A DNA stretch of 64,000 nt from Desulfonatronovibrio hydrogenovorans DSM 9292. Lineage in GTDB: Bacteria; Desulfobacterota; Desulfovibrionia; Desulfovibrionales; Desulfonatronovibrionaceae. The position numbers and the translations under genes were made by a program. Below, in pieces: positions 1,553-24,939 of this stretch. The stretch's first letter is position 1, and every line of letters starts with the position of its first letter. Under the pieces are notes generated by a model. That model was not told where the DNA came from. It ran no database searches and saw only the letters and a list, made by a program, of their open reading frames with translations. The stretch covers positions 310,001-374,000 of the forward strand of contig NZ_JMKT01000008.1 of assembly GCF_000686525.1 (NCBI RefSeq), read 5' to 3'.

Positions 1553-2026
1553 ATGAACCATCCCGGGGATCTAGAGCGCCTGGAAAAAGTCAGGCTTATG
1601 CTGGTAGATGATGAAGAGCGCTTTCGGACTACTCTGGCCAAGAGGCTGGGGGAGAAGGGGGTCAAACCAAGGACCGCTTCAGGCGGGGTGGAGGCCCTGC
1701 AATCCATGAAGGACGGCCCAGTGGACGTGGTGGTTCTGGATATTAAGATGCCTGGAATGGACGGCATTGAAACCCTTGGCCAGATCAAGAAGATTGATCC
1801 GGATACAGAGGTGATCTTATTGACCGGCCACGCCAATGTGGAGTCAGCTGTGGAGGGAATGAGACTGGGAGCTTATGATTACCTGATGAAGCCCTGTGAC
1901 CTTGAGCAGCTTTTAGAAAAAATCCTCCAGGCCTATGACCACAAGGTGTCCAGAGAAGAAAGCCGGGTTAAGGACAAGATGAAGGAACAGGTGGAGCACT
2001 GGCAAAAGCACTGGTCCAGATCATAA
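1553..2026 (+). CDS. Stand-alone response-regulator receiver protein
   Basis: A 157-residue protein consisting of one CheY-like receiver domain and a short charged helical tail. All signature residues are present: the acidic pair D19/D20, phospho-acceptor D63 (VLDIKMPG), T91 and K113 (MKPCD). There is no DNA-binding, GGDEF or enzyme domain, so the output must be a protein partner. The start has a strong Shine-Dalgarno (AAGGAGGAGACG-ATG). It is the first gene of a receiver - CBS - DASS transporter set (1553-4393) repeated as 9980-12531. It is very similar to the receivers at 12731 and 15445, so these are recent paralogues. Its cognate kinase is probably one of the histidine kinases at 13711, 15962 or 18446. 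Confidence 0.93.
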   Translation: MNHPGDLERLEKVRLMLVDDEERFRTTLAKRLGEKGVKPRTASGGVEALQSMKDGPVDVVVLDIKMPGMDGIETLGQIKKIDPDTEVILLTGHANVESAVEGMRLGAYDYLMKPCDLEQLLEKILQAYDHKVSREESRVKDKMKEQVEHWQKHWSRS

Positions 2027-2137
2027 TGAAATTGGCCCTGGATTGAGAAAAAAAGGACATGGCCAGCCTAGCTCAGGACGGTTTATGAATCAAAATGTTT
2101 TAATTTGTCTTTTGGAAAAATATCCAGGGCCATCCTG

Positions 2138-2166
2138 TTGACACTTTTTTGTATTTGATGTTTAAG
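2138..2166 (+). promoter_or_regulatory. Probable sigma-70 promoter for the CBS-transporter pair
   Basis: TTGACA (2138-2143), 17-base spacer, then TTTAAG (2161-2166), in the 312-base gap before the CBS gene at 2339. The -35 box is consensus and the -10 matches four of six bases. Confidence 0.45.
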
Positions 2167-2190
2167 GGCTGCTAGCAACTAGCTCAGGCT

Positions 2191-2208
2191 AGTTATTTTT
2201 TGCACAAT
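2191..2208. repeat. 18-base motif shared with the histidine-kinase upstream region (copy 1)
   Basis: agttattttttgcacaat is found identically at 18307-18324. Here it lies 130 bases before the CBS gene start; the second copy lies 121 bases before a histidine kinase start. Near-identical placement suggests a shared regulatory site. Confidence 0.45.
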
Positions 2209-2338
2209 TGATGTTTCAGATGATTTCAAAAGGTCTTTTGGGCAGGGTTTCAAACGGTTGGGAGGCAGTATCTTTAGGCCCTCCACCTGTTTGCTGATTA
2301 AACAGCTATTGAATGAGGTTAATTTAAAGGAGGATTCC

Positions 2339-2908
2339 ATGGTTGAAAAAAAACCTGAGCATCCGCGAATAGGAGATTTGATGGTGGGTTTAAAGGAGTT
2401 CCCCACCATTTCCAGGGAAGCCTTTTTCCATGAGGCCCACACAGCCCTAGAAAAGGCTCAGGAAAATTTTTTAGCTGGCAGAAGCAGGTACAGGACGCTT
2501 CTGGTTGAGGACGACAAGGGGCAAGTAGTGGGCAAGCTGTCGCCCATGGATCTTATCCAGGGCCTTGAGCCTAAATATACAAATGTTATTGATCCCAACC
2601 GGCTGAAATTCAAGGACACAATGTATGTGATCAAATCAATGAAGCAGAAAGTACTATGGGACAAGCCCCTGGATAATCTCTGTCAGGTAGCACAGCACAG
2701 CAAGATAAAGGATTTTCTCAAGCTGCCCACTGAAGGACATATGGTGGGCAAGGATGATTTTCTGGATGACGCCCTGCACCGGTTTGTAGTTGAGCGTCAT
2801 GATTCCCTTTTTGTGGTGGATGGAACTAAGCTAGTGGGCCTGCTCCTTTTTGCAGATGTTTACAGCTATATTTCCAATAAAATTAAAGAAAGTTGCACGG
2901 CTGGCTGA
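2339..2908 (+). CDS. Double-CBS-domain protein preceding DASS transporter
   Basis: A 189-residue soluble protein with two CBS-type repeats. The first is around residues 10-80 (RTLLVEDDKGQVVGKLSPMDL) and the second around 125-183 (DSLFVVDGTKLVGLLLFADV). CBS pairs usually bind adenosine nucleotides and gate a partner protein. The start at 2339 is chosen over an upstream in-frame start at 2258 because AAAGGAGG precedes the ATG at proper spacing. It is followed after about 60 bases by a DASS transporter. The paralogue at 10449 is also directly before a transporter, so a partnership with the transporter is likely. Sulfate activation turns ATP into APS and finally AMP, so an adenylate sensor on an uptake system would make sense; that link is inference. 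Confidence 0.85.
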   Translation: MVEKKPEHPRIGDLMVGLKEFPTISREAFFHEAHTALEKAQENFLAGRSRYRTLLVEDDKGQVVGKLSPMDLIQGLEPKYTNVIDPNRLKFKDTMYVIKSMKQKVLWDKPLDNLCQVAQHSKIKDFLKLPTEGHMVGKDDFLDDALHRFVVERHDSLFVVDGTKLVGLLLFADVYSYISNKIKESCTAG

Positions 2909-2968
2909 CCTATCCTGGTCGGGTTTTTTTGCTTTAAAAAAATAAAAAAAACCAATGAGGTGTGAATT

Positions 2969-4393
2969 ATGGCTGAAGTTGAATCCATCAAAAAAGAATC
3001 CGGCCCCGGCATAATCCTGGTCAAGCTTGCCATTGCCGTGGGTCTGGGCCTTTTTGTTGCATTACTGCCCACTCCGGAAAACTTATCCCCTGAAGGGCAC
3101 AGGCTGCTGGCCCTGCTGGTCACTGTGGTCATCCTGTTTGTTACTGAGGCTATTCCCATCGGAGTTACCGCTCTCCTGGTCGGTTCAGGGCTTATTCTTT
3201 TCAATATCCAGACCCCCCACGATGCCTGGGCACCGTATGCCAGTCCGGCAGTCATGTTTGTGCTCATGATCATCATGTTCGGGGTAGTCCTGAATGAAGT
3301 TGGTCTGGCCAAGCGCATCATGTATTATCTCCTGAAATTTGCCGGGACCAAGGTCAAGCGCCTGAGCCTGATTCTTTCCATTGGCTGTACCATGACTGCC
3401 AGTGTATTTCATGATGCTACAGTCACGGTTATCATGGTCTTTGCCTTTGTGCCGGTGTTCATGGCCATGGGCATGAAGCCCGGCCAGGGCCACCGGCTGC
3501 CCATGTTCTTCATGATGCTCATCCCCATGGCTGCTTCAGCCGGAGGTTTTGCCACCTTGCTGGGCGGAGGACGTAATCCTCTGGCTGTGGAAATCCTGCA
3601 GGTCTTTACCGAAGAGTCACCCAAATTTGCCGAGGCAATTACCATCGGGTTCATGGAGTACATAATTATCCAGTTTCCCATAGCTATTCTTACAGCCCTG
3701 GGAACCTGGGGTGTTCTTTGGCTTGCTTTCAGGCCCAAGGAAAAGGAGCTTTCCGGGATAAAGCTGGAAGATCCCGGTCCCATGCAGTTCAAGGAAATCG
3801 GGGTCCTGATTGTGTTCATCGGAACATTTGTATTGTGGTTCATGGGCGATCTGACCGGATGGCATGTGAGTATCCCGGCGGCCCTGGCCATTGCAGGTTT
3901 TTGCGGACCAAAATGGATCTCTTTTCAGACCATCTGCGACAAATTTCCCTGGGAGTCGTGGATTGTGTTCGGGGCAGGAGTGTCTCTGGGCATGGCCATG
4001 CTCAACAGCGGAGCAGGCATGTTCCTTGCCGAGTCTTTGTTGCCTTTGCTGCAAGGCAAGCATGAATTTGTGGTCTATTTCGGATTTGGATTCTTTGGCT
4101 CCTTTATCTCCAGTCTCATGAGCAATTCAGCTGCTGTGGCCCTGATGCTGCCCATCACTCTGCCCATGGCCGAAATGATGGACATGTCACCCCAGGCTGT
4201 GGCCCTGCTGGCTCCCATGACCACTTCGTTCATCATGCTGGTCATTGGCTGCCCCCCGACCATTATTGCTTACAGCACCGGGTATTTTTCCCAGGGTCAG
4301 TTTGTGAAATACGCTGTTCCATGGTGCATTTTCCTCCTTCTGGTCTGCTCATTTTCAGTTATGATTTATTGGCCCATCATCGGCTTCTCCTAA
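2969..4393 (+). CDS. DASS/SLC13-family anion:Na+ symporter-like membrane protein (I)
   Basis: A 474-residue polytopic membrane protein with the two-repeat DASS (divalent anion:sodium symporter) plan: TEAIPIGVTALLVG in the first repeat and SSLMSNSAAVALMLPI in the second. The second repeat keeps an SN-type anion-binding turn (S385-N386-S387). At the matching first-repeat position the usual SNT is replaced by HDA (H148-D149-A150, in VFHDATVTV). The paralogue at 11068 shares the change. Family substrates are sulfate, thiosulfate or di/tricarboxylates. The nearby sat-apr-qmo block makes sulfate likely but not proven. It is preceded by a CBS gene and followed by a terminator at 4426. Confidence 0.88.
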   Translation: MAEVESIKKESGPGIILVKLAIAVGLGLFVALLPTPENLSPEGHRLLALLVTVVILFVTEAIPIGVTALLVGSGLILFNIQTPHDAWAPYASPAVMFVLMIIMFGVVLNEVGLAKRIMYYLLKFAGTKVKRLSLILSIGCTMTASVFHDATVTVIMVFAFVPVFMAMGMKPGQGHRLPMFFMMLIPMAASAGGFATLLGGGRNPLAVEILQVFTEESPKFAEAITIGFMEYIIIQFPIAILTALGTWGVLWLAFRPKEKELSGIKLEDPGPMQFKEIGVLIVFIGTFVLWFMGDLTGWHVSIPAALAIAGFCGPKWISFQTICDKFPWESWIVFGAGVSLGMAMLNSGAGMFLAESLLPLLQGKHEFVVYFGFGFFGSFISSLMSNSAAVALMLPITLPMAEMMDMSPQAVALLAPMTTSFIMLVIGCPPTIIAYSTGYFSQGQFVKYAVPWCIFLLLVCSFSVMIYWPIIGFS

Positions 4394-7063: not shown

Positions 7064-7075
7064 TTCCAACTCCCT

Positions 7076-9670: not shown

Positions 9671-9903
9671 AAATGCAGTACTCCGCTGGGTAAACAAGCA
9701 ATTTTTAGTGGAACTGGCCAATTGATATAAGACATTGAAAATCAATTAGCAATACAGGGCAGTTGAGTCAGGCGGCAATTTAAGTTTTATTATGTGTCAT
9801 AATGAAGCAGCAGCCAGCTATACATTATGAAACATATAGAATCGAAGGCATGGAAAGGGATTAGTCGCAAATCTAAGTATTTGAAATTATTCAGGCCAAT
9901 ATC

Positions 9904-9979: not shown

Positions 9980-10375
9980 ATGGATCAGGCAAACAGCATA
10001 ACATCAGACAGCAAGCCCTGTATTCTTGTGATTGAAGAAAGCAGGATATTTTGTTCAATCCTGTCCCGGGTGCTGGAAAGTCAGGGTTTCAGAGTGGCCA
10101 AAGTCTTTTCCCTGGATAGAGCCCTGGAAGAGATTGCCAGGGATTGTCCTGATGTTGTGGTCCTCAGTCTGACCCGTTTCAGGGGAGAAGGTGTATCCAT
10201 GCTTTCCGTACTCAAGGAGGCTTACTCGGAGCTGCCGTTGATTGTCCTGGGCTTTCAGGAGGACAGCAGGCTTTCCCTGGAGTGCATGCGGCTGGGAGCC
10301 GCCGACTTCCTGCTGCTGCCCCTGGACCTGGAAGATCTGATAAAGAGTATATCCAGGCTTATAAGTGATAAGTGA
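9980..10375 (+). CDS. Degenerate (pseudo-)receiver domain protein
   Basis: 131 residues with the length and pattern of a CheY-like receiver (CILVIEESRIFCSILSRVLE; CPDVVVLSLTRFRGEG; MRLGAADFLLLPLDLEDL). The residues that make phosphorylation possible are gone: the phospho-acceptor Asp is Ser63, the conserved Thr/Ser is Gly91 and the Lys is Leu113. The acidic pair is Glu-Glu (19-20). The fold should persist but not be phosphorylated. It holds the same place (first gene before CBS and transporter) as the intact receiver at 1553, so it may be a constitutive or ligand-gated version. It is preceded by a sigma-54 promoter. Confidence 0.85.
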   Translation: MDQANSITSDSKPCILVIEESRIFCSILSRVLESQGFRVAKVFSLDRALEEIARDCPDVVVLSLTRFRGEGVSMLSVLKEAYSELPLIVLGFQEDSRLSLECMRLGAADFLLLPLDLEDLIKSISRLISDK

Positions 10376-10448
10376 AGCAGATACTAATTTTTTGGAAAGG
10401 GCTCAATAAAATAAAGGCTTAATAAGAACACTAACCATGGAGGTTGAT

Positions 10449-11006
10449 ATGGAAAAGTCACTGGTAAAAGAATTGACTTGTCCGGTCAAAGATTTCCCCA
10501 GAATCCGGGAGAATTCAACATTTGTCCAGGCTGCCAGGGCCCTGCATCAGGCCCAGGAGGAATTTACCTCGGGTAAGGGCAAGCAGAGGATTCTTTTGGT
10601 GGAAGATCAGGACGGAAAAATCAAGGGCAAGCTTTCACCTTTTGATCTGATGCGCGGTCTTGAGCCGGAATATGAAAAGCTGGTGGATACCAGTAAAGGT
10701 GCTTTTGTGGCCAACTACGAATACGTGATCCAGACCATGCGGGAGCAGTACTCATTTTTGGAAAAACCTTTGAGTGATCTCTGCTCCAAGGCAGCCCAGA
10801 CAAAGGTCAGGGACTTTCTCAGGCCTGTGACTGAAATCCAGACCATAAGGTCCGGGGCCAGCCTGAATCAGGCTCTGCACAGGTTTATTGTAACTCGGTT
10901 TGACTCCTTGTTTGTGGTGGATGATGGCAAGCTGGTGGGAGTTTTAAGGTTTTCCGATGTGTACAGGGAAATCTATAAGACCATAACCCAGGAATGTAAT
11001 TTATAA
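10449..11006 (+). CDS. Double-CBS-domain protein preceding DASS transporter (paralogue)
   Basis: 185 residues, clearly homologous to the protein at 2339: FTSGKGKQRILLVEDQDGKI / GKLSPFDLMRGLEPEYEKL and a C-terminal FDSLFVVDDGKLVGVLRFSDV. It probably binds adenylates with two CBS motifs and acts on the next gene's product. The ATG at 10449 is preferred over 10437 because GGAGG lies at 10440-10444, inside the longer version. A 61-base gap separates it from the transporter. Confidence 0.85.
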   Translation: MEKSLVKELTCPVKDFPRIRENSTFVQAARALHQAQEEFTSGKGKQRILLVEDQDGKIKGKLSPFDLMRGLEPEYEKLVDTSKGAFVANYEYVIQTMREQYSFLEKPLSDLCSKAAQTKVRDFLRPVTEIQTIRSGASLNQALHRFIVTRFDSLFVVDDGKLVGVLRFSDVYREIYKTITQECNL

Positions 11007-11067
11007 GAAAATTTTTTGCCTCTTTTTGTGAAAAAAATAGCAAAATTATATTTCGGAGGTATCTAAC

Positions 11068-12531
11068 ATGTCTGATAGAGCATTGGATCAAAACCAGGGT
11101 GAGATAGTAATTGAAGAGCATCCTGAAGCACCCAGGCAGTCGGGCAAGAGCATTATCATCAAGTGCTCCATTGCCGTGTTGCTGGGTCTGCTTGTTTATG
11201 CCCTTCCCACACCGGATAACCTGTCCATTGAAGGACACAGGCTGCTGGCTCTGCTGGTAACCTGCCTGATTCTCTGGACCACCGAGGCCATCCCCATCGG
11301 TATTACAGCCCTTTGCGTTGGAGGAGGGATGATCATGTTCGACATTGTGGGCAGAAACGACGCCTGGACGCCCTATGCCAACCCGGCAGTCATGTTCGTG
11401 CTCATGATCATCATGTTCGGGGTGGTGCTCAACGAGGTGGGGCTGGCCAGACGTTTGATGTATCATCTTCTGCGGCTGGCCGGGACCAATGTCAAGAAGC
11501 TGAGCTTCATCCTGGCCGTGGGCTGCACCATGCTGGCCACCATACTGCATGATGCAACCGTGACCGTTGTCATGGTCTTTGCATTTGTGCCGGTTTTCAT
11601 GGCCATGGGTATGAAGCCCGGGCAGGGGCATGATCTGCCCAAGTTTTTCCTGATTCTGATCCCTTTGGCAGCTTCAGCAGGTGGATTCGGGACCATGATC
11701 GGCGGAGGGCGAAATCCCCTGGCGGTTGAGATCCTTTACCGCTATACTCAGCAGGAAACAGGAGAAGGCAGGGTCATTGGTTTTCTGGAATACCTGATTA
11801 TCCAGTTTCCCATCTGCTTTTTTACAGCAGTGGCAACCTGGGCTGTGGTCTACTTTTTGTTCCGGCCCAAGGAAAAGGAGCTGGTCGGTGTCAAGCTGGA
11901 GTACCCGGGACCGTTGCGCGGGGCAGAACTGGGTGTGGCCCTGGTTTTTGTGGGTGCCTTTGTGCTCTGGTTCATGGGGGACCTGACCGGATGGCATGTG
12001 AGTGTGCCTGCTGTATTGGCCATGATCGGATTCTGCGCTCCGGGCTGGGTGTCCTTCAGGACCATTTGTGACAAGTTTCCCTGGGAGTCCTGGATTGTGT
12101 TCGGGGCAGGTGTATCTCTGGGTCTTGCCCTGCTTAAGACCGGAGCTGGACAGTTTCTTGCCGAGGCCTGCCTGCCGCTTCTGGAAGGAAGAAATGATTT
12201 TATCGTATTCTACGGTCTTGGATTTTTCGGATCATTTCTGTCCAGCCTCATGAGCAACTCAGCTGCAGTGGCTCTGACTCTGCCCATAACCCTGCCCATG
12301 GCAGAAATGCTTGGGATGTCGCCGGTGGCGGTAGCTCTGCTGGCTCCCATGACCACCTCCTTCATCATGCTGGTCATTGGCTGCCCTCCGACCATTATAG
12401 CCTACAGCTCCGGATACTTCACTCAGGTGGATTTTATCAAGGTGGCTGTGCCCTGGTGTCTGATCCTGCTGGTGGTGGCGGTTGTGGGGGTACTTTTTTA
12501 CTGGCCCCTGATCGGGATTGCAGCCCATTAA
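11068..12531 (+). CDS. DASS/SLC13-family anion:Na+ symporter-like membrane protein (II)
   Basis: A 487-residue polytopic protein, strongly similar to the transporter at 2969 along its whole length, with about 20 extra hydrophilic N-terminal residues. Family features are TEAIPIGITALCVGGG and SSLMSNSAAVALTLPI (S396-N397-S398). The first-repeat binding turn is again HDA (H161-D162-A163). It should move a divalent anion with sodium across the inner membrane. The context (CBS protein and receiver before it, receiver and kinases after it, sat-apr-qmo further on) points to a sulfur oxyanion and signal-controlled activity. The Shine-Dalgarno is CGGAGG. A hairpin follows the stop. Confidence 0.88.
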   Translation: MSDRALDQNQGEIVIEEHPEAPRQSGKSIIIKCSIAVLLGLLVYALPTPDNLSIEGHRLLALLVTCLILWTTEAIPIGITALCVGGGMIMFDIVGRNDAWTPYANPAVMFVLMIIMFGVVLNEVGLARRLMYHLLRLAGTNVKKLSFILAVGCTMLATILHDATVTVVMVFAFVPVFMAMGMKPGQGHDLPKFFLILIPLAASAGGFGTMIGGGRNPLAVEILYRYTQQETGEGRVIGFLEYLIIQFPICFFTAVATWAVVYFLFRPKEKELVGVKLEYPGPLRGAELGVALVFVGAFVLWFMGDLTGWHVSVPAVLAMIGFCAPGWVSFRTICDKFPWESWIVFGAGVSLGLALLKTGAGQFLAEACLPLLEGRNDFIVFYGLGFFGSFLSSLMSNSAAVALTLPITLPMAEMLGMSPVAVALLAPMTTSFIMLVIGCPPTIIAYSSGYFTQVDFIKVAVPWCLILLVVAVVGVLFYWPLIGIAAH

Positions 12532-12542
12532 CAGTAAAGGCT

Positions 12543-12575
12543 GAATTACCGTCCGAGATGATCGGGCGGTAATTC
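12543..12575. terminator. Hairpin after transporter II
   Basis: GAATTACCGTCCG pairs with CGGGCGGTAATTC (13 bp, one G-T) around a 7-base loop. No T-run follows, so it may protect the 3' end of the mRNA or terminate weakly rather than stop transcription fully. Confidence 0.55.
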
Positions 12576-12730
12576 AAGAATAACTAAAAAGCCCTTGACT
12601 TTTTTTGTACAAACAGTTGAAAGTTCATATGTAACCAAAGAGCATGTCCTGGCAGCCAGCTGGTGAAAAGGGCGAAGCTGCAGCTGATGAACCAAATCAT
12701 GGAATTTGATCTAAAGGAGGTTGAAAGGCC

Positions 12731-13183
12731 ATGTTTGACAATACAAGTCTAAAACTGCTTCTGGTGGATGACGAGGAAAGATTCAGGACCACACTGGCTA
12801 AAAGATTGCAGGGCAAAGGTTTTGAGACTGCTGATGTAGGCAGTGGCACACAGGCCCTTGAGTACATCAAGGATAACCCGGTGGATGTGATCATACTGGA
12901 CATCAAGATGCCGGGTATGGATGGAATTGAGACTTTGGCCCAGGTCAAGCAGATCACTCCGGGCATTGAAGTTATTCTTCTGACCGGGCACGGTACAGTG
13001 GATACGGCCATTGAAGGCATGCGGGCCGGAGCGTATGATTATCTCATGAAGCCCTGTGAAATCGAAGACCTTATAGACAAGATCAGCAGGGCCTTTGAAG
13101 TTAAAAAGGAACGGGATACCAGGCTTAAGCAGGCTGAGGAAAGAAGCCGCCTGGACAAGCTGGAAAAGGCTGTAAGATTTTAA
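12731..13183 (+). CDS. Stand-alone response-regulator receiver protein
   Basis: 150 residues: one receiver domain with D13/D14, phospho-acceptor D57 (ILDIKMPG), T85 and K107 (LMKPCE), then a charged helical tail (about 115-150). It is nearly the same as the receivers at 1553 and 15445. A strong Shine-Dalgarno (AAAGGAGG) precedes the start and a terminator follows at 13189, so it forms a small unit of its own between transporter II and the kinase genes. There is no output domain; a transporter or CBS protein is a likely target. Confidence 0.93.
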   Translation: MFDNTSLKLLLVDDEERFRTTLAKRLQGKGFETADVGSGTQALEYIKDNPVDVIILDIKMPGMDGIETLAQVKQITPGIEVILLTGHGTVDTAIEGMRAGAYDYLMKPCEIEDLIDKISRAFEVKKERDTRLKQAEERSRLDKLEKAVRF

Positions 13184-13710: not shown

Positions 13711-15423
13711 ATGAAAAGAAACATTAAAGGGGCAAGCGTTTACAGTGCAAAGCTGCGCTGGCACATCATCATTTCTTACTGCTTAGCTGCTGTCATTTCA
13801 CTGGGACTCATTGCCGGGACCATATATTTTCAGTATCGAAGCGCAATCACAGAAAGGGCAACTGCCAGGCTGGTATCCATAGTCATGGAGCATAAGGGGG
13901 CCATTGAGAATTTTCTCTTTGAGCTGGCCAATACCATGCGCATGGTCACCTTGCTCGAACAGTACGACCAGCTGAAACAGCAGGAAGTTCTGGAACAGGT
14001 TTATGCGGTCCTGGAAAAGGAGTATGATTTTGCCTTTGAAGACCTTGGAGTCCTGGACTTGGAAGGCAATCACCTGGCTTATGTCGGGCCTTACGACCTG
14101 ATGGACAAGAATTACAGGGAATCTCCATGGTTTCAGGAGGTCCTGGAAAAAGACCTGGTTATCAGCAATGTGTTTCTGGGCTTCAGGCAGGTACCGCATT
14201 TCATCATAGCCATCAAACAGACCAATGGCCAGGAAACCTGGGTGCTCAGGGCTACGGTCAATGCAGTCAAGTTTGCATCCCTGGTGGAATACGTCCGTTT
14301 CGGCCGGACAGGCTTTGCCTACATCGTCAGCAGCGACGGTCATTACCAGACCAGGTCCAGAGAGGGATTCAGGGTCATGGATCAGGTCAGTCCCGGTCTT
14401 CTTGACCTGAGCATGTTTGAAGGAGTCAATTTCTGGAAACTGAACCAGGAAGACAGGAGTTTTTTCAGGGCCAAGACCTGGATCAAGGACAATGACTGGC
14501 TGCTGGTTGTGGAGCAGGATGTGGATGATATTTACGGAGAGCTTTATCCATTGAGGCAGAATTCCCTCATCATCTTTGCCCTGGGTGGTGCGCTACTGGT
14601 CCTTCTTACTTTGCTGACCATGAAGATACTCCTGCGCCGGGTCAAGCTGATTGACTCTGAAAAGCAGCTTCTGGACGAGCAGCTTATCCAGTCTCAGAAA
14701 CTGGCATCCATTGGACAGCTTTCTGCAGGCATTGCCCATGAGATCAACAACCCCCTGGCCATAATCGGGGAAGAAGCAGGATGGATTCAGGATATTCTCA
14801 AACGTGACAACATGCAGGATATCCCTGAACGTGACGAACTGACGGACTCTCTGCGGGAGATAAGCCAGCAGGCAAAAAGATGCAGGAGAATCACCCATAA
14901 GCTTCTGAGTTTTTCCAGGAAAATGGATTCCACCATCCGCGATGTGGATATGAACCTGCTCATTGATGAGGTTGCAGCCCTTAGAGAGCGTGAAGCCAAG
15001 CTGTATTCCATCAAGTTTGTCAGGGATTATGAAAAGGATCTGCCCATAATCAAGACTGACTCATCCCAACTCAGGCAGGTTTTTTTCAATCTTATCAATA
15101 ATGCCATGGATGCCATTCAGAAGGATGGGGAGATCTGCATAACAACCAGTAAGAACAAGGACGATTCAGTAGCGGTGTCCATCAGCGATACAGGTCCAGG
15201 CATTCCCAGTGAAAACCTGCTCCGGATATTTGATCCTTTTTTCACCACCAAGGAGCCGGGCAAAGGTACAGGCCTGGGTTTGTCCATCTGTCATGGAATA
15301 ATTGAAAAGCTTGGAGGAACAATTTTTGTGGCCAGCAAGGTCGGGCATGGGACCACCTTTACAGTAAGACTTCCTAAAAACCCCGACCTGGCACTGGTCA
15401 AGATAAAGAATGATAAAATTTGA
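13711..15423 (+). CDS. Sensor histidine kinase with extracytoplasmic Cache-like domain (I)
   Basis: 570 residues. TM1 is about 18-40, then a periplasmic region (about 41-284) with a Cache-like pattern ([42 protein letters not shown]). TM2 is about 285-308. A short coiled stretch leads to the HisKA helix with the phospho-acceptor His343 ([16 protein letters not shown]). The HATPase_c domain has [33 protein letters not shown]. The class resembles NtrB/DctB-type kinases. The partner is probably the receiver at 15445, whose start follows by about 20 bases. Cache domains bind small anions such as carboxylates, which would fit sensing the transported anion. The start has only a weak ribosome-binding site. 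Confidence 0.92.
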
Positions 15424-15444: not shown

Positions 15445-15885
15445 ATGACCCTTAAAAAAGATTTGACCAAAAACGCACCCAGGATACTTCTTGTTGATGA
15501 CGAGGACCGGTTTAGAACAACTTTGAAAAAGAGGCTGTCCACCAGACACCATCAGGTTCTGGACGCCTCCAATGGGTTGAGGGCTCTGGAGATTGTCAGG
15601 GAGACTCCAGTTGATGTCGTGGTTCTGGATGTACGTATGCCAGGCCTCAGCGGACTGGAAACCCTGACCGAGATGAAGAAGATTGCCCCGGATATCGAGG
15701 TGATCCTGCTGACCGGCCACGCTTCCATTGATCCGGCCATTGAGGGTATGCGCCTGGGAGCCTTTGATTATCTCATGAAACCCTGCGATATAGAAGATCT
15801 GATGATAAAAATTGAAAGTGCTTATGAAACAAAGCAGGCCAGAGTGGATAAATCAGGCTCAAAACAAGGTGCCTGGAGCGATTGA
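15445..15885 (+). CDS. Stand-alone response-regulator receiver protein
   Basis: 146 residues with a complete receiver: D18/D19, phospho-acceptor D62 (VLDVRMPG), T90 and K112 (LMKPCD). It has a short Ser/Lys-rich tail and no output domain. It sits between two paralogous histidine kinases in the same direction (13711 and 15962), so it is presumably their shared or main phosphorylation target. It is near-identical in motif sequence to the receivers at 1553 and 12731. Confidence 0.93.
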   Translation: MTLKKDLTKNAPRILLVDDEDRFRTTLKKRLSTRHHQVLDASNGLRALEIVRETPVDVVVLDVRMPGLSGLETLTEMKKIAPDIEVILLTGHASIDPAIEGMRLGAFDYLMKPCDIEDLMIKIESAYETKQARVDKSGSKQGAWSD

Positions 15886-15961: not shown

Positions 15962-17713
15962 ATGGCGGATCATTATCAACCTACCTATTCATGGATTCGC
16001 CGGCATATTACCCTGGTTATCTTCCTGGTCCTGTTCATCCCTTTTCTTCTGGTGGTTACCCTGGTCTATTTCACAGGCTACCAGTACATCAAAAAGTGTA
16101 TTTCCGAGCAGGCAGGTTTCACTCTACATGACACTGCGGTTGAATTAAGGTCTGAAGTTGATTCTCAGATTACCGGACTCATCAAGACCCTGACCTTTAT
16201 TGCTGAAGCTGAAACCCTGGACGGACTCAGGGATGAGGAGAACCTGAAAAATGTCTTTGCCAGGCTTGAAAGGGAATCAGGCCAGGTGTTTCAGGATCTG
16301 GCAGTACTTTCTTCCCAGGGAGAAGTGATTTCCAGTGTCTTGCCTTATGGCATGGAGCAGTTTGATTACAGCCGGGAAAAGTGGTTTGACAGGGCTTGCA
16401 TGGACAAATTTATTGTCAGTGACGTCTACCCGGATTCCAGGATGAATCCTTTCTTTGTGGTTACTGCCAGACATGACCGCTGTGATGACTCAGCCATCCT
16501 CAGGGCTTCGGTAAATGGTTTGTGGCTAAGCTCTTTTGTTGAAGATGTAAGGATAGGCAAGACAGGAGAGGCTTTCATCATTAACCGGCAAGGCGCGGCT
16601 CAGACCAGATCCAGGATGGGCAAAGACTTTGGACATATCCTTGATGATTTTCCGGATAACCTTCCCGGAGCCAACGGAACCCAGAGGATGGTCTACCATG
16701 ATCAGGACATGGAAGTCCTGGCCGCTATAACCGTCATGAAAAGCAATGATGATTGGTTCCTGGTGGTCAGCCAGGAAAAAGAAGAGGCCATAGAAAGCAT
16801 CTTCATGATCAGGCTGGTCTTTACTCTGGTGGTGATTGCCGGACTGATATCCATTATATTCATAGGCTATCTGACCTCGAATATTCTGCTCAGGAAGATA
16901 CGTCAGGCTGATGAAAAAAAATGTGTCATTGATGAACAGCTTATCCAGTCCCAGAAGCTGGCTGCCATAGGCCAGCTCTCCTCAGGAGTGGCTCATGAAA
17001 TCAACAACCCTCTGGCGGTCATCGGTGAAGAAGCAGGCTGGCTTCAGGACCTCATGGAAAAGGACGGGGCTGATGATTTCAAACATGCCGAGGAATTCCG
17101 GGATTCCCTGGGAGCCATAACTGAGCAGGTGCGCAGGTGTAAGGAAATTACTCACAAGCTGCTCAGCTTTGCTCGAAAGATGGACTCATATATCAATGAA
17201 GTAAAACTCCAGGAAATCATTGATGAAGTGGTGGATATGAGGGAGCAGGATGCATTTCTGGACAATATAATCATTGAAAAAAAATATAGCCAGAATATAC
17301 CCAAAATCAACAGTGAACCATACCTGCTGCGCCAGCTTTTTCTGAACCTCCTGAACAATGCATTAGACGCAGTTGGCAAGGATGGTAAGGTCAAGTTTAC
17401 CATTGGCATGGCTGGAAAGGACAGGGTCATGGTCAGACTGGAAGACAGCGGGGTTGGCATTCCCAAGGAGAATCTGGGCAAGATTTTTGATCCGTTTTTT
17501 ACCACCAAACCTCCAGGCAAAGGAACCGGTCTGGGCCTTTCCATCTGTCACGGTATCATCACCAAGCTGGGTGGGGATATTAGGGTTGAGAGCACGGTTG
17601 GCAAAGGAACCACGGTCACGGTCATCCTCCCTCCTGACCCGCCTGACAATGTCAAGGCCAGGGCAGGAGAAATGGATGATGCAGGTATTGTGTCCGGAAG
17701 CCAGACTTACTAG
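15962..17713 (+). CDS. Sensor histidine kinase with extracytoplasmic Cache-like domain (II)
   Basis: 583 residues, same layout as the kinase at 13711. TM1 is about 18-40, the periplasmic sensor about 41-282 ([52 protein letters not shown]), TM2 about 283-305, HisKA with His345 ([16 protein letters not shown]), and HATPase_c with [33 protein letters not shown]. The sensor part differs far more from kinase I than the catalytic part does, which suggests different ligands feeding one receiver. It is 76 bases downstream of the receiver at 15445. No terminator is seen directly after it. Confidence 0.92.
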
Positions 17714-18324: not shown

Positions 18325-18445
18325 ATTATTGCAGATAATTTTTTAGAAGTTGGCGGAAATTGAATTGAGTTTTCTGGTTCAGATGATTTTTTATAACTCT
18401 GGTTAGAGCCCTGCAGGGCTCTAACCAGGATACTTGGGAAAAGGC

Positions 18446-20230
18446 ATGTCGCAGTCCGAAGTCAGGCGTCCGGCAACAGGGCGCAAACCTTACGGGAAGG
18501 CTCCTGAAAAGATGCCCGTGAAAAACGTTCATCAGGAGTCCTTGGCAACCCACCATCGCCGGTTCAAGCGCGGTATTCTGCTCTGCCTTTTTCTGACCTA
18601 CCTCTTTCCTATTATCATCCTGTCGGTTTATTTTCACTACAAGTCCAGCGCAGGTATGCTTCAAAGCAGCAAGCTGCAGCTTGTTGCTGAAGTAGAGGCC
18701 AGAAAGAACACAATTGATCTGTTCATGCAGAAGCGGGTTGTGAATATGTTCAACCTGTTTCACATGGAAGGTTTTTCCCTTAGTCCGACTCAGGAAAGAA
18801 TGGAGTCCTACCTGGACAATCTGATTCGGTCCGATGACGCCTTTGTTGATGTCGGGCTGATCAATCCCCTTGGAATTCAGACCGAATATGCAGGACCATA
18901 CTCCAATCTCAAGGGTAAGAACTATGGTCGTGAAGAGTGGTATATAAGACTCATCAACCAGGAAAAGAGCTATATCATAACTGACCTGTACATGGGTCTG
19001 CGGCAGGAGCCCCATTTTACCGTAGGGGTCAGGCAGCTGGTGGACGGAGAATATCATGTGATCAGGGCCAGCGTGTACCCTGACAAACTGCTGGGACTGA
19101 TCCATGCTCAAGACAGCGGCAGCCAGTTCCGGGGGTTCCTGGTCAATCAAAAGGGAGTGTTTCAGGTTGGAGATCATGGCCTTGGGAACCTTCTGGAGCC
19201 TGCTTATTATGTGCCGGACTTTAATGATCCGGCCGGGGTAGTTGAGATGGACTGGGATGGTTCGCCTGTTCTCGTGGCACACACCTGGCTTCAGGAGGTT
19301 CCATGGTGTCTGGTCGTGATTCAGCCAAAGGACGTGGCCTTTGAAGAAATGGCTTCAATCCGCAATACCATGATCCTCGGGACCATTGTTCTGGTTCTGG
19401 TGATCATGGTCTTTATCTGGCTTGTGGTAACCAGACTTCTTAACAGGACCAGGGACCTGGATCAGGAGCGCCATGAACTAAAAGGACAGCTCTATCATGC
19501 CCATAAGATGGTGTCTGTGGGCCAGCTGGTGGGGGAAGTGGCCCATGAAATCAACAATCCGCTGGCTATCATTGATTCCGAGTCGGGTATTATAAGGGAT
19601 ATGCTTGATCCAGAAATGGGCCTGGATGCCTCTCCAGAGGCTATCCGCAAGGAGCTGGACCAGATAGACAAGGCAGTCATGAGGGCCAGGGCCATTACCC
19701 AGGAAATACTCAGTTTTGTCCGCAAATCTGAGCCAAAAATCGAAGAGTGCGATCTGAATCAGCTGATTGATGATGTGGTTTCCGGAATGAAGGAGCAGGA
19801 GTTTAAGGTCTCTGACATCTTACTGATTAAGGAAAAGGAGGAGAGTCTGCCTAAAATTCAGGTTGATCCTGACCTCATGAGGCAGGTCCTGCTTAACCTG
19901 TTGAATAATGCCGGCGATGCCGTGGAAAAGGGGGACACCATCACCCTGAAGACTTCTCAGGACCAGGGATATGTCAAAGTGACAGTATCTGATACCGGAT
20001 CCGGCATGACTCCTGACCAGCTTGAAAAGATATTCACTCCCTTTTTTACCACCAAGAAAGCTGGTCAGGGCACTGGTCTGGGGCTGCCCATCTGCTTGAA
20101 TATTGTCCAGGGATTTGGTGGCCGGATAGAGGTTCAAAGCAGCCCGGGACAGGGAACGTCTTTTTCAGTCTTTCTGCCGGTTCCTGGAAAAAACAGCCTG
20201 GACAAGGATAATTCGGGTAATCCATCCTGA
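18446..20230 (+). CDS. Sensor histidine kinase with extracytoplasmic Cache-like domain (III)
   Basis: 594 residues. A long basic N-terminus precedes TM1 (about 46-66). The periplasmic sensor follows (about 67-307: DVGLINPLGIQTEYAGPYSN; YGREEWYIRLINQEKSYIIT), then TM2 (about 310-333), HisKA with His367 ([16 protein letters not shown]) and HATPase_c (NLLNNAGDAV, DTGSGMT, FFTTKKAGQGTGLGLP). The ATG at 18446 is used because GGGA lies six bases upstream; TTG at 18434 is possible. It is directly before the receiver fragment and the receiver-transporter fusion, so it is the best candidate kinase for that fusion. Confidence 0.92.
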   Translation: MSQSEVRRPATGRKPYGKAPEKMPVKNVHQESLATHHRRFKRGILLCLFLTYLFPIIILSVYFHYKSSAGMLQSSKLQLVAEVEARKNTIDLFMQKRVVNMFNLFHMEGFSLSPTQERMESYLDNLIRSDDAFVDVGLINPLGIQTEYAGPYSNLKGKNYGREEWYIRLINQEKSYIITDLYMGLRQEPHFTVGVRQLVDGEYHVIRASVYPDKLLGLIHAQDSGSQFRGFLVNQKGVFQVGDHGLGNLLEPAYYVPDFNDPAGVVEMDWDGSPVLVAHTWLQEVPWCLVVIQPKDVAFEEMASIRNTMILGTIVLVLVIMVFIWLVVTRLLNRTRDLDQERHELKGQLYHAHKMVSVGQLVGEVAHEINNPLAIIDSESGIIRDMLDPEMGLDASPEAIRKELDQIDKAVMRARAITQEILSFVRKSEPKIEECDLNQLIDDVVSGMKEQEFKVSDILLIKEKEESLPKIQVDPDLMRQVLLNLLNNAGDAVEKGDTITLKTSQDQGYVKVTVSDTGSGMTPDQLEKIFTPFFTTKKAGQGTGLGLPICLNIVQGFGGRIEVQSSPGQGTSFSVFLPVPGKNSLDKDNSGNPS

Positions 20231-20274: not shown

Positions 20275-20433
20275 ATGACAGAAGATGGACAATCAGTACC
20301 AGCCAAAAAGGTAAAGGTCCTGCTCATCGACTACGAAGAACGGTTCAGGGGGGCGTCGTTCAGGATTCTCCAAACCTGGAGGGAAGGCCTGATCAACACC
20401 ATGATGACCACGGACCGGGAGCACAAACCATAA
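20275..20433 (+). pseudogene. Truncated receiver-domain fragment (52 codons)
   Basis: A strong Shine-Dalgarno (AATGGAGGTAAAAG) precedes an ATG and 52 codons whose first 30 residues match the start of the next gene: KVKVLLIDYEERFRGASF against the fusion's PRVLLVDDEDQFRTTLAK. The first acidic-pair position is kept but the second is Tyr. The frame stops after DREHKP with no phospho-acceptor. It looks like the remnant of a tandem copy of the receiver part of the fusion gene. Retention of a good ribosome-binding site leaves open a role as a leader peptide. Confidence 0.6.
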
Positions 20434-20463
20434 ACGAAAAATCAGTTTTTAGGGAGGTTTACA

Positions 20464-22506
20464 GTGACTGAAAACGGAAAAATAGCACCAGGTGAAAAGC
20501 CCAGAGTCCTTCTGGTGGATGATGAGGATCAATTTCGGACCACCCTTGCCAAAAGGCTTGAGGCCAGGGGTTATCACGTCATAGACGTGGACAACGGCGA
20601 AGATGCCATGAAGGCTATCCGCCACGAAAATCCGGAAGTAGTTGTCCTGGACCAGAAGATGCCAGGCATGGAGGGTGTTGAAACCCTGCAGGAGCTGAAG
20701 AAAATTAAACCTGAAGTTCAGATCATCATGCTCACCGGGCATGGGGATATTGAGCTGGCCAGGCTTACCGGAAGACATGATGTGCTTTCCTTCATGCAAA
20801 AGCCGGCTTCCATCGAAGACCTTATCGAACAGATCGAGATCGGCCGCCAGGAGTTCCGTTATGCCATGCAGCGGGAGGAAGTCCCCTTTGTCGAAGAAAA
20901 GGGACTGAAAAACTGGCTGATTGGCACAGAGGGCTCCAGGCCTGGGATCATCATCCTGGGAGCCATACTCTTTTTCACTCTGTTTTTTATGCCGACTCCG
21001 GAAAAATTGACTATGATGCTTTCCATAGAAAAGGGGACTCCCCAGGATGAAATGATCCGGGGCTATGCCCAGTTCCGCAACCTGGCCCAGGGCCAGACCA
21101 TTGCTGAGTTTTATGGAAAAATGGCCCCCTACAGTTTTGAAGGGGAACGGGAGATCCAGGCTGCAGCCCAGCGGGCCAAGGTCATGGTGGGTGTCCTGGT
21201 CGTTGCAGCTCTTTTCTGGGCCACAGCAGCCATCCCCATTGGCGTGACCGCCATGCTCATAGCTGTGATCATGTACTTTTTCGGGGTGCTTCCGCCAACA
21301 GGGGTGGCCAAGGCCTTTGCCTCTGATGCGGTCTTCTTTATCTTCGGGGTGCTGGCCATGGCCATGGCCATCAGCAAGACCGGGCTGGACAAGCGTATTG
21401 GTCTGCTGGTGCTATCGCCCACTACGTCCATCATGAAAATGGGTCTTATTTTTGCCCCCATGGTGGCTGTGTGCGCCTCTTTTCTGTCCGAACATGCGAT
21501 CATAGCTTTTATAGCGCCGATCTTTATGCTGGTATATCTTTCAGCCATCAGAACAGGCGGGATATCCCAGGATAAGACCCTGGTGGTCATGATGCTTCTG
21601 ACCCTGAACTATGCCTGTAATGTTGGCGGGCCAGGATCACCGGCAGCCGGCGGTCGAAACGTGGTCATGATTCAGATTTTGAGTGACTATGGGATAAACA
21701 TTACCTTTGCCCAGTGGGTCATGTACGGTCTGCCCTTTGTTCCGGTGATGGCCCTTGTTGTCGGTCTTTACTTCTATTTCTGGGGCAGGAACAAGGTTAA
21801 GATCAAGGCGCTGGATATTGCAGCCAATGTCAGGCGTGAAGCTGAGAAGATCGGTAAGATGACCCAGGCAGAATACAGGACAGCCATAGTCCTGGTCCTG
21901 CTGATCATCGGCTGGTCAGCATTTTCCGGTACCTACGGCATGGGCGGTCCAGTCATGCTGGCCCTGGTGGCCCTGAATGTCCTAGGCATTCTGCGCTTCA
22001 AAGATATTGCCCACATTCACTGGGGTCCGGTATTTCTGTATGCCGGTGCTACAGCCATGGGTTTTGGTCTGGCTTCAACAGGCGCTGCCCTGTGGGTAGC
22101 TGACATATTTGTCAATGCCCTTCCCACATTCCTGGCCAATTCCGGGGCTGGTCTGGCCATTGCCTCGTCCATCCTGGTGGGTATCCTGACCAACTTCATG
22201 AGTGACGGCGCCACAGTGGCGGCCATCGGGCCTATTGTGGTACCTATGGCGATTATTGCTGAGGCCTCTCCGGTAGCGGTGGGTCTGGCTGCAGCCTTTG
22301 CCTCGTCATTTGCTCATATGCTGGTGGTTGGTACTCCCAACAACGCCATTATTTATGCAGTGGCCAAAGATCCCAAGACTGGCGAGCAGCTGGTAACCAT
22401 GGGTGATTTCTTCAAGCATGGTTTCTTTGTCCTGCTCCTGTCCTGGGTCATTTTGTGGTTCTGGACCATTCTGGGGTACTGGAAGTTCTTGCCATGGCCG
22501 GCCTAA
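20464..22506 (+). CDS. Receiver domain fused to DASS/SLC13-type transporter
   Basis: 680 residues in one uninterrupted frame. Residues about 14-130 form an intact receiver: acidic pair in VLLVDDED, phospho-acceptor D63 (VVVLDQKMPG), Thr in IIMLTGHG, and K113 (FMQKPAS). After a charged linker (about 130-150) comes a polytopic DASS transporter: GAILFFTLFFMPTPEKL, AAIPIGVTAMLIAV and many more membrane spans. The first-repeat binding turn reads SEH (342-344) and the second SDG (580-582), different from the HDA/SNS of the other two transporters. The start is GTG with GGGAGG upstream. The fusion implies that phosphorylation directly alters transport. The kinase at 18446 lies immediately upstream. 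Confidence 0.9.
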   Translation: MTENGKIAPGEKPRVLLVDDEDQFRTTLAKRLEARGYHVIDVDNGEDAMKAIRHENPEVVVLDQKMPGMEGVETLQELKKIKPEVQIIMLTGHGDIELARLTGRHDVLSFMQKPASIEDLIEQIEIGRQEFRYAMQREEVPFVEEKGLKNWLIGTEGSRPGIIILGAILFFTLFFMPTPEKLTMMLSIEKGTPQDEMIRGYAQFRNLAQGQTIAEFYGKMAPYSFEGEREIQAAAQRAKVMVGVLVVAALFWATAAIPIGVTAMLIAVIMYFFGVLPPTGVAKAFASDAVFFIFGVLAMAMAISKTGLDKRIGLLVLSPTTSIMKMGLIFAPMVAVCASFLSEHAIIAFIAPIFMLVYLSAIRTGGISQDKTLVVMMLLTLNYACNVGGPGSPAAGGRNVVMIQILSDYGINITFAQWVMYGLPFVPVMALVVGLYFYFWGRNKVKIKALDIAANVRREAEKIGKMTQAEYRTAIVLVLLIIGWSAFSGTYGMGGPVMLALVALNVLGILRFKDIAHIHWGPVFLYAGATAMGFGLASTGAALWVADIFVNALPTFLANSGAGLAIASSILVGILTNFMSDGATVAAIGPIVVPMAIIAEASPVAVGLAAAFASSFAHMLVVGTPNNAIIYAVAKDPKTGEQLVTMGDFFKHGFFVLLLSWVILWFWTILGYWKFLPWPA

Positions 22507-22571: not shown

Positions 22572-22638
22572 TTGACTTGAAAGGTCTGAAGTCGCCTAGA
22601 TGCCGACAGAATCAGACAGGCATGATCACTTAATGACT

Positions 22639-22685
22639 GATGGGCCTTTCCGGATTAACCAGTCCGGTAAGGCCCATCTTTTTTT
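22639..22685 (+). terminator. Strong rho-independent terminator
   Basis: GATGGGCC...GGCCCATC with an inner CCGGA/TCCGG stem, followed by seven T. It lies before the receiver at 22708, which argues against upstream in-frame starts (from 22600) for that gene and for its own promoter or read-through. Confidence 0.82.
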
Positions 22686-22707
22686 GCTCTATATAAGGAT
22701 GAGAGAT

Positions 22708-23088
22708 TTGAGTGAAGACAAGATAAATCTGCTTTTGGTTGATGATGAAGAGGCCCTTCTTGATTCCATGCGCCGCCGTCTGGAGTTGAGAGGTTTCAGG
22801 GTTATTGCGGTTAACAGTGGTGAAAAAGCCCTTGAAGTGGCCAGGACAACTCCGGTGGATGTGGCTGTTGTGGATGTGAAGATGCCCGGGATGGGTGGAA
22901 AGGAAGTCCTGCTGGCTCTCAAGCAGGAGCACCCTGATATGGAGGTCATTATCATGACCGGCCATGGGTCTTTCGACCCCCATGAAAAAGATTTGGCCGG
23001 CAAGATGCACGCCTGCCTGGCCAAGCCTTGTGACTTTGCATCTTTTCAGCAGACCCTGATGGATGCTTATCGTAAGTCTCGAAAATAA
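22708..23088 (+). CDS. Stand-alone response-regulator receiver protein
   Basis: 126 residues from a TTG start at 22708 with AAGGA eight bases upstream; ATG at 22699 in the same frame overlaps that site. Complete receiver: acidic pair D12/D13, phospho-acceptor D56 (VVDVKMPGMGG), T84, K106 (LAKPCD). It is a little apart in sequence from the 1553/12731/15445 group. No output domain. It lies between the receiver-transporter fusion and sat, and closes the signalling region. Confidence 0.88.
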   Translation: MSEDKINLLLVDDEEALLDSMRRRLELRGFRVIAVNSGEKALEVARTTPVDVAVVDVKMPGMGGKEVLLALKQEHPDMEVIIMTGHGSFDPHEKDLAGKMHACLAKPCDFASFQQTLMDAYRKSRK

Positions 23089-23595: not shown

Positions 23596-23652
23596 GTTCA
23601 TAAATTCACAAGGCAATTAACTCAAAGAGAAACAAATTAAGGAGGTTTGACA

Positions 23653-24939
23653 ATGTCCAAACTGCTACCCCCTCATGGAGGGAAAGGCTTGACTGTTTGT
23701 CTTCTGGAAGGAGCTGAAAGGGAAGCTGAGCTTAAAAAGGCCCAGGGTCTGAAAAAGGTTGAGATCAGCCGTGGCGAACGTGGTGATCTGATCATGATCG
23801 GTACCGGTGGTTTCAGCCCTCTGGATGGCTTCATGACAAAGGAAGACTGGAAGGGTGTTTGTGAAAACTTTCTGCTGGCTGATGGAACATTCTGGCCTGT
23901 GCCGGTTAACCTGTCCGTTTCCAAGGAAGATGCCGACGCTGTCAAGGAAGGCGACGAGATCACTTTGTATTTCCCGGAAAAAGACGAAATCATGGCCACT
24001 ATGAAGGTCACTCAGAAGTGGCAGAAGTCCGAAGCCGATAAAAAATGGGAATGCGAAATGGTCTACAAGGGTCAGGGCGAAGAAAGCGCTGATGACCAGT
24101 TCTGGAAGATCGCCATGGAAGACCATCCTGGTGTGCAGCGGGTAATGGCCGATAAGGACTACTTTCTGGCCGGACCGGTCAAGGTTCTTAGTGAAGGAGA
24201 TTTCCCCACCAAGTTCAAGGGCACCTATATGCGTCCTGCTGATGCCAGGGCTGAGTTTGACAAGCGTGGTTGGGCCACTGTTGCTGCCCTGCAGCTCAGG
24301 AATCCCATGCACCGCTCTCATGAGCACCTGGTCAAGATCGCCATTGAGGTGTGCGACGGTGGTTTTATCCACTCTCTGATCGGTAATCTCAAGCCCGGTG
24401 ATATTCCTGCTGAAGTCCGCATTAAATGCATCAACACTCTGATCGACGGCTACTTTGTGAAAGACAACGTGGTCCAGGGCGGTTATCCTCTGGATATGCG
24501 CTATGCCGGACCCAGGGAAGCCCTGCTTCATGCAACTTTCAGGCAGAACTACGGTGTGTCTCACATGATCATCGGTCGTGACCACGCTGGTGTTGGTGAC
24601 TTCTACACCCTGTTTGAAGCCCAGGAGATCTTTGACCGTATTCCCCAGCCTACAGAGCCTGGCAAGGCCCTGCTGTGCAAGCCTCTCAAGATTGACTGGA
24701 CCTTCTACTGCTTCAAGTGCGACGGCATGGCCTCCATGAGGACCTGCCCTCATACCAAAGAAGACCGGGTGATTCTCTCCGGAACCAAGCTGCGCAAGGC
24801 CCTGTCCGAGAGCCAGCCTGTGCCTGACCACTTTGGCCGGGATGAGGTTCTGGAAATTCTGCGCGACTACTACGAGAACCTGACCGAGAAGGTTGAGATC
24901 AAGATGCAGAAGGCTGCTTCTGGTTCGGAAATGAAGTAG
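23653..24939 (+). CDS. sat: Sulfate adenylyltransferase (ATP sulfurylase)
   Basis: 428 residues. It makes adenosine 5'-phosphosulfate (APS) and pyrophosphate from ATP and sulfate in the cytoplasm, the activation step of dissimilatory sulfate reduction. Diagnostic motifs are [10 protein letters not shown] (214-223), the ATP-binding 'HxxH' region, and [12 protein letters not shown] cysteine-containing segment ([19 protein letters not shown]) near the C-terminus is typical of the homo-oligomeric enzyme of sulfate reducers, where the cysteines can bind a metal. The length is normal. ATG at 23653 is used because GGAGG lies seven bases before it; a TTG six bases upstream is less likely. A strong terminator follows. 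Confidence 0.97.

Follow-up and report, generated by a model that had tools for sequence, protein, structure and literature searches.

In the window, the 64,000-nucleotide stretch of Desulfonatronovibrio hydrogenovorans DSM 9292 DNA analysed here, one reading frame joins an intact receiver domain to a transporter related to the DASS family, and full-length versions of this fusion occur in 15 genomes, this one included, from four families of one phylum. We consider it probable (roughly 0.6) that a two-component output acts here directly on a secondary transporter, from a kinase to the receiver and from there to a putative transport activity.

Translation of the window revealed 680 codons without an internal stop on the forward strand (20464-22506), starting with GTG behind a good ribosome-binding site. 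Both Pfam domains of the product lie above their curated cut-offs, so that the original prediction of a single open frame uniting receiver and transporter was borne out. In the 2.94 Mb draft genome the whole query matched in a single frame at only one place, which is this locus. The gene is organized as follows:

20451..20458, + strand, ribosome-binding site of the fused gene, AGGGAGGT (sequence)
20464..22506, + strand, fused gene for receiver and DASS-related transporter, 680 aa, GTG start, stop included
20506..20835, + strand, receiver domain, residues 15-124 (Pfam)
20518-20523, + strand, acidic pair D19/D20 of the receiver (alignment)
20650-20652, + strand, D63 of the receiver (alignment)
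20734-20736, + strand, T91 of the receiver (alignment)
20800-20802, + strand, K113 of the receiver (alignment)
20842..20937, + strand, linker from the receiver to the first membrane helix, residues 127-158 (alignment)
20938..20997, + strand, first hydrophobic helix, residues 159-178 (family-averaged hydropathy)
20998..21171, + strand, variable loop, residues 179-236 (conservation), predicted to be extracytoplasmic
21172..22503, + strand, DASS-related transporter core, residues 237-680 (Pfam Na_sulph_symp; alignment to VcINDY)
21487..21495, + strand, SEH at the place of the first SNT motif, residues 342-344 (alignment)
22201..22209, + strand, SDG at the place of the second SNT motif, residues 580-582 (alignment)

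The receiver matches Pfam Response_reg over residues 15-124 with an E value of 1.5e-24 and 86.7 bits (curated cut-off 30.2). It had been called intact on the basis of D63, a threonine and K113; all three are present, T91 being the threonine, together with the acidic pair D19/D20. These five residues are unchanged in 16/16 fusion copies that retain the receiver; at position 110, the switch position, the fusions have F or Y. An AlphaFold model built from the window sequences gave a pLDDT of 84-92 over residues 11-90 of the receiver part; the mean over the fusion was 53.8, and the transporter half, mostly below 50, was unusable for a comparison with the INDY-type fold.

The transporter half matches Pfam Na_sulph_symp (PF00939) at residues 236-673 with an E value of 2.7e-33 and 116.1 bits against a curated cut-off of 27, and its core aligns to VcINDY (E 9e-21) and to variants of VcINDY (best E 2.6e-21). 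The NCBIfam DASS model TIGR00785 yielded 157.7 bits, below its cut-off of 198.6. The description as a complete DASS-type transporter is thus upheld by PF00939 and has to be narrowed with respect to TIGR00785 and to the SNT motifs, and the protein appears to be a divergent DASS relative outside the TIGR00785 model. The two SNT motifs of VcINDY are its sodium sites. At their places the fusion contains SEH and SDG, which according to the alignment are retained throughout the fused clade and in a sister group of 45% identity. Na+ coupling is therefore not to be assumed, and H+ is a candidate coupling ion that would make a fair test. The SNT positions read SAH and SDA in a more distant group of 40% identity and SDH and ADG in a group of 620-aa transporters; the changed motifs could be the sign of a large DASS-related branch that uses another coupling ion.

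In-frame homologues with 56-92% identity were found in 14 other genomes: a congener (92%), two genomes of another family of the same order (65%), one genome of a third family (59-61%) and ten genomes of a fourth family (56-69%). Two additional copies are cut by contig ends. The class-level search added nothing to the order-level search; the class holds no other genomes. A scan of genome contigs returned receiver matches with no fusion among them. Two candidates with open-frame values of 730 and 712 (G035:C294 and G054:C37) were rejected as adjacent separate genes, and the long frames in G748 and G745 also turned out to be separate genes.

Comparison of this genome with the congener resulted in dN/dS values of 0.032 for the receiver, 0.030 for the transporter core and 0.092 for the linker with the first helix and the loop, ratios that are approximate because dS is about 1.2. 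Purifying selection on the receiver is equal to that on the transporter core. A sequencing error joining two genes would have refuted the original prediction; the 14 independent full-length homologues and the low dN/dS of the receiver (0.032) rule out a sequencing, frameshift or assembly error. To the wider idea of a fusion that arose by error, or that is carried along neutrally and regulates nothing, we give hardly any credence: no evidence in its favour was found, the error part is refuted, 16 fused copies share an invariant phospho-site, and the receiver is under the selection described above.

A transporter tree with the first six fused loci placed all fusions in one clade (100/99), and the receiver tree of these loci did the same (SH-aLRT 99). 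With 16 fusions the transporter tree again contained a single fused clade (SH-aLRT 98) without an unfused member inside, and the kinases encoded directly upstream of six fused loci also formed one clade (SH-aLRT 100). Single clades for transporter, receiver and upstream kinase indicate that kinase and fusion travelled together and point to one fusion event, after which the fused gene and its kinase were probably passed on as a unit, by inheritance or by transfer.

Of the 32 linker positions 4 are invariant, a lower conservation than in the domains, which counts against direct control in so far as tight coupling can only be presumed; the RPG at the end of the linker is kept in 16/16 fusions. 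An in-frame ATG within the linker region at 20866 (Met135), preceded by AGGAG at 20849-20853, could allow two products from one gene, with receiver and transporter separated by internal initiation or by cleavage. We regard this as very improbable, because the spacing between AGGAG and ATG is long and Met135 is absent in G029, G045 and G531.

The fused gene is embedded in a cluster with related components:

1553..4393, + strand, unfused set of a receiver-only gene (1553), a CBS protein (2258) and a DASS transporter (2969) (Pfam)
9980..13183, + strand, unfused set of a degenerate receiver (9980), a CBS protein (10437), a DASS transporter (11068) and a receiver-only gene (12731)
13711..15423, + strand, Cache histidine kinase, possible alternative kinase (Pfam)
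15445..15885, + strand, receiver-only regulator (Pfam)
15962..17713, + strand, Cache histidine kinase, possible alternative kinase (Pfam)
18434 (TTG) or 18446 (ATG)..20230, + strand, histidine kinase, likely cognate (Pfam; orthologue upstream in other fused loci)
22600..23088, + strand, receiver-only regulator 3' of the fused gene (Pfam; receiver tree)
23647..24939, + strand, sat, sulfate adenylyltransferase (Pfam, NCBIfam)

The likely cognate kinase (18434..20230) contains the H, N, G1 and G2 boxes and a weak Cache match under the curated cut-off. An orthologue is located directly upstream in 14 of the 15 fused loci where the contig permits a check, the exception being G734. In G668, G754 and G758 the frames of kinase and fusion overlap slightly, an arrangement that is consistent with translational coupling. 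In G531 an N-terminal receiver is part of the kinase frame upstream of the fusion (L076 9457-11514, - strand). The claim of a histidine kinase immediately upstream needs a small correction for this genome: it is the next kinase upstream, but an ORF of 52 codons (20275-20433, + strand) with its own ribosome-binding site lies in between. This ORF is similar to the N-terminal ~30 residues of the fused receiver, its acid pair being D-Y, and a similar peptide ending in EHKP is found at the same place in the congener G002 (within L072 16147-16416). It may be what is left of a receiver, or else a conserved small peptide.

On the 3' side, the regulator at 22600..23088 falls into the group most closely related to the fused receiver in the receiver tree, with weak support (80). 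A second receiver just downstream would also suit a fused receiver that serves as a tether for the kinase at the transporter, or as a sink for phosphoryl groups, while transport is unchanged, and phosphate-sink receivers are known (DifD, cited in PMC12802240). As a sink a soluble receiver would suffice, and the retention of the fusion in four families points to a role at the transporter, so that this possibility seems quite improbable to us.

Upstream of the fused gene the window contains two sets of receiver, CBS protein and unfused DASS transporter as well as three membrane kinases of related type. Pfam revealed no DNA-binding domain in the five stand-alone regulators of the window (1553, 9980, 12731, 15445 and 22600). 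One of them, at 9980-10375 (+ strand), has EE as the acid pair, Ser instead of the phospho-acceptor Asp and Leu instead of Lys, and by these residues appears to be a pseudo-receiver beside a CBS-DASS pair. Two PEP-synthase-like genes of the PPDK_N type are located on the - strand (4475-7069 and 7076-9745). The one that was scanned consists of PPDK_N and the mobile PEP-utilizers domain, with no match to the C-terminal PEP-binding domain; homologues of these genes recur in many DASS clusters.

The nearest unfused transporters share ~45% and ~40% identity with the fusion and mostly belong to gene clusters that also encode CBS proteins, receivers and Cache-type kinases. Some members of the 40% group (L091, L092, L093, L094, L103, L104, L140 and L141) have a receiver-only gene directly upstream of the unfused DASS gene with 7-83 bases between the frames, the order being CBS, receiver, DASS and sometimes another receiver. 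For L096-L101 and L107, also of this group, the adjacent gene is a CBS gene alone, and not all members of the 45% group have an adjacent receiver upstream. Fusion in one lineage and adjacency in another argue, in the sense of a Rosetta stone, that receiver and transporter work together. The receiver-only genes beside some unfused DASS genes, and window regulators without a DNA-binding domain, would favour direct control. Another type of fusion found in these clusters unites receiver and CBS matches in one frame (L076 228-1148, L087 255-1166, L039 3366-4349 and L044 63-995), next to unfused DASS genes of ~620 aa.

The putative substrate of the fused transporter is likely sulfate, because sat and the genes that follow it, aprB (25165), aprA (25715), qmoA (27840) and qmoB (29094), adjoin the fusion, because aprA occurs in 16 of the 17 fusion-bearing genomes when partial matches are counted, and because this genome contains no match for SulP. 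The aprA gene of this locus was identified by profile search, and aprB, qmoA and qmoB by reading of the translations. Among the 17 genomes, aprA was above the cut-off in 14 and represented by contig-edge or partial matches in two more; the association taken alone is weak because aprA is common in the phylum. In G730, a genome that is 91% complete with a fusion at L130 9115-11184, the aprA match was weak (21.6 bits); either the gene is missing from the draft or the organism is not a sulfate reducer. The position of sat one gene after the fusion, as originally predicted, holds here and is confined to this genus: sat was not found in the examined flanks (~10 kb at most) of fused loci outside this genome and the congener. 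With this genus-specific link and the altered sodium-site motifs, the label "sulfate:Na+ symporter" should be taken as inference.

The N-terminus of INDY-type transporters is cytoplasmic, so that a kinase can reach the receiver; these transporters work as dimeric elevators, and phosphorylation often causes receivers to pair. Phosphotransfer, its effect on transport, the sign of this effect and the substrate are what we infer. The membrane kinase at 18434-20230 would sense a cue outside the cytoplasm and transfer phosphate to D63 of the receiver, which the transporter carries at its cytoplasmic N-terminus. This phosphorylation might then rearrange, pair or release the two receivers under the transporter dimer, and the change would pass via the conserved linker and hinder or free the elevator movement. 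The import of an anion, most likely sulfate, could in this way be set quickly without new transcription. We lean slightly to a brake that would act when sulfate is plentiful, since cells are reported to shut down their high-affinity sulfate uptake at high sulfate in order to save energy (PMC5840216).

The main rival to direct control is a flow of information in the opposite direction. The transporter would be a sensor of flux or occupancy, and its conformation would decide whether the receiver gains or loses phosphate, which would tune the kinase and the receiver-only regulators. Symporters do serve as sensor modules in the SLC5/STAC kinases (PMC9100948), DctA interacts with the kinase DcuS (PMC5703999), and other receivers and kinases of the cluster could take the signal. 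However, the kinases of these clusters have their own extracytoplasmic sensor regions, the known cases involve a transporter touching a kinase and not a receiver, and the stand-alone receivers include no DNA-binding regulator. We therefore judge this reading unlikely, though it deserves more weight than the others considered above. Against direct control itself stand the locus G734, which lacks the upstream kinase, and the restriction of the sat adjacency to one genus. Taken together, the architecture, the conservation in four families, the phospho-site and the co-inherited kinase favour the predicted control of the transporter by phosphorylation; with the sodium-site motifs altered, the symporter part of that claim is presumptive.

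Microbial sulfate reduction starts with the uptake of sulfate, and little is known about how cells limit this step. If a receiver is part of the transporter chain, a two-component system would have a direct output in secondary transport, and the presence of the fusion in several families of sulfate-breathing bacteria suggests that uptake is controlled directly and not only via gene switching. More tentatively, and with less than even odds in our estimation, receiver-only regulators and CBS proteins of sulfate reducers may in general bind and gate the clustered DASS transporters post-translationally. If so, sulfate uptake would be run by phosphotransfer circuits with transporters instead of promoters as outputs, a new output class of two-component systems. 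The many receiver-only regulators in the DASS clusters of these bacteria, until now modelled as transcriptional (PMC11887813), would thereby acquire a role that can be tested.

No description of a receiver-transporter fusion was found in the literature searched; most subscription journals were outside the reach of this search, which makes the result weak evidence of novelty. According to Marietou et al. 2018, members of DASS group Cii reach 691 aa, which would be compatible with a receiver fusion, and the words receiver, two-component, histidine kinase and fused are absent from their text. Compared with DASS/SLC13 transporters (VcINDY and relatives, TC 2.A.47), the fusion is homologous in sequence over the core and differs by its score below the TIGR00785 cut-off, by SEH/SDG in place of SNT, by the long variable loop after the first helix and by the N-terminal receiver. 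A 2025 study of Desulfobacteraceae describes clusters with the same kinds of genes (Cache kinases, regulators, CBS proteins and DASS transporters), which are said to control sulfate uptake, and proposes transcriptional control by regulators called WalR type (PMC11887813). The passages of the study that were examined mention no fusion, whereas the regulators here are receiver-only and one is fused. In the SLC5/STAC sensor kinases CbrA, CrbS and RpuS a symporter domain is likewise joined to a two-component module (PMC9100948), but there it is attached to the kinase as a sensor and here to the receiver as a probable output. The receiver-only regulator EpsW controls the membrane enzyme EpsZ by direct contact (PMC12802240) and is similar in that a receiver acts on a membrane protein; EpsW and EpsZ are separate proteins with an enzyme as target, whereas here the receiver forms one chain with a transporter. 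In function, the lactose transporter LacS comes closest; it is a secondary transporter with a fused phosphorylatable regulatory domain, in which phosphorylation of an EIIA-like domain by HPr changes transport (PMC10710835). LacS combines the PTS donor HPr and an EIIA-like domain with a transporter of the GPH family, whereas the fusion described here would combine phosphorylation at an Asp and a histidine kinase as donor with a DASS-type transporter.
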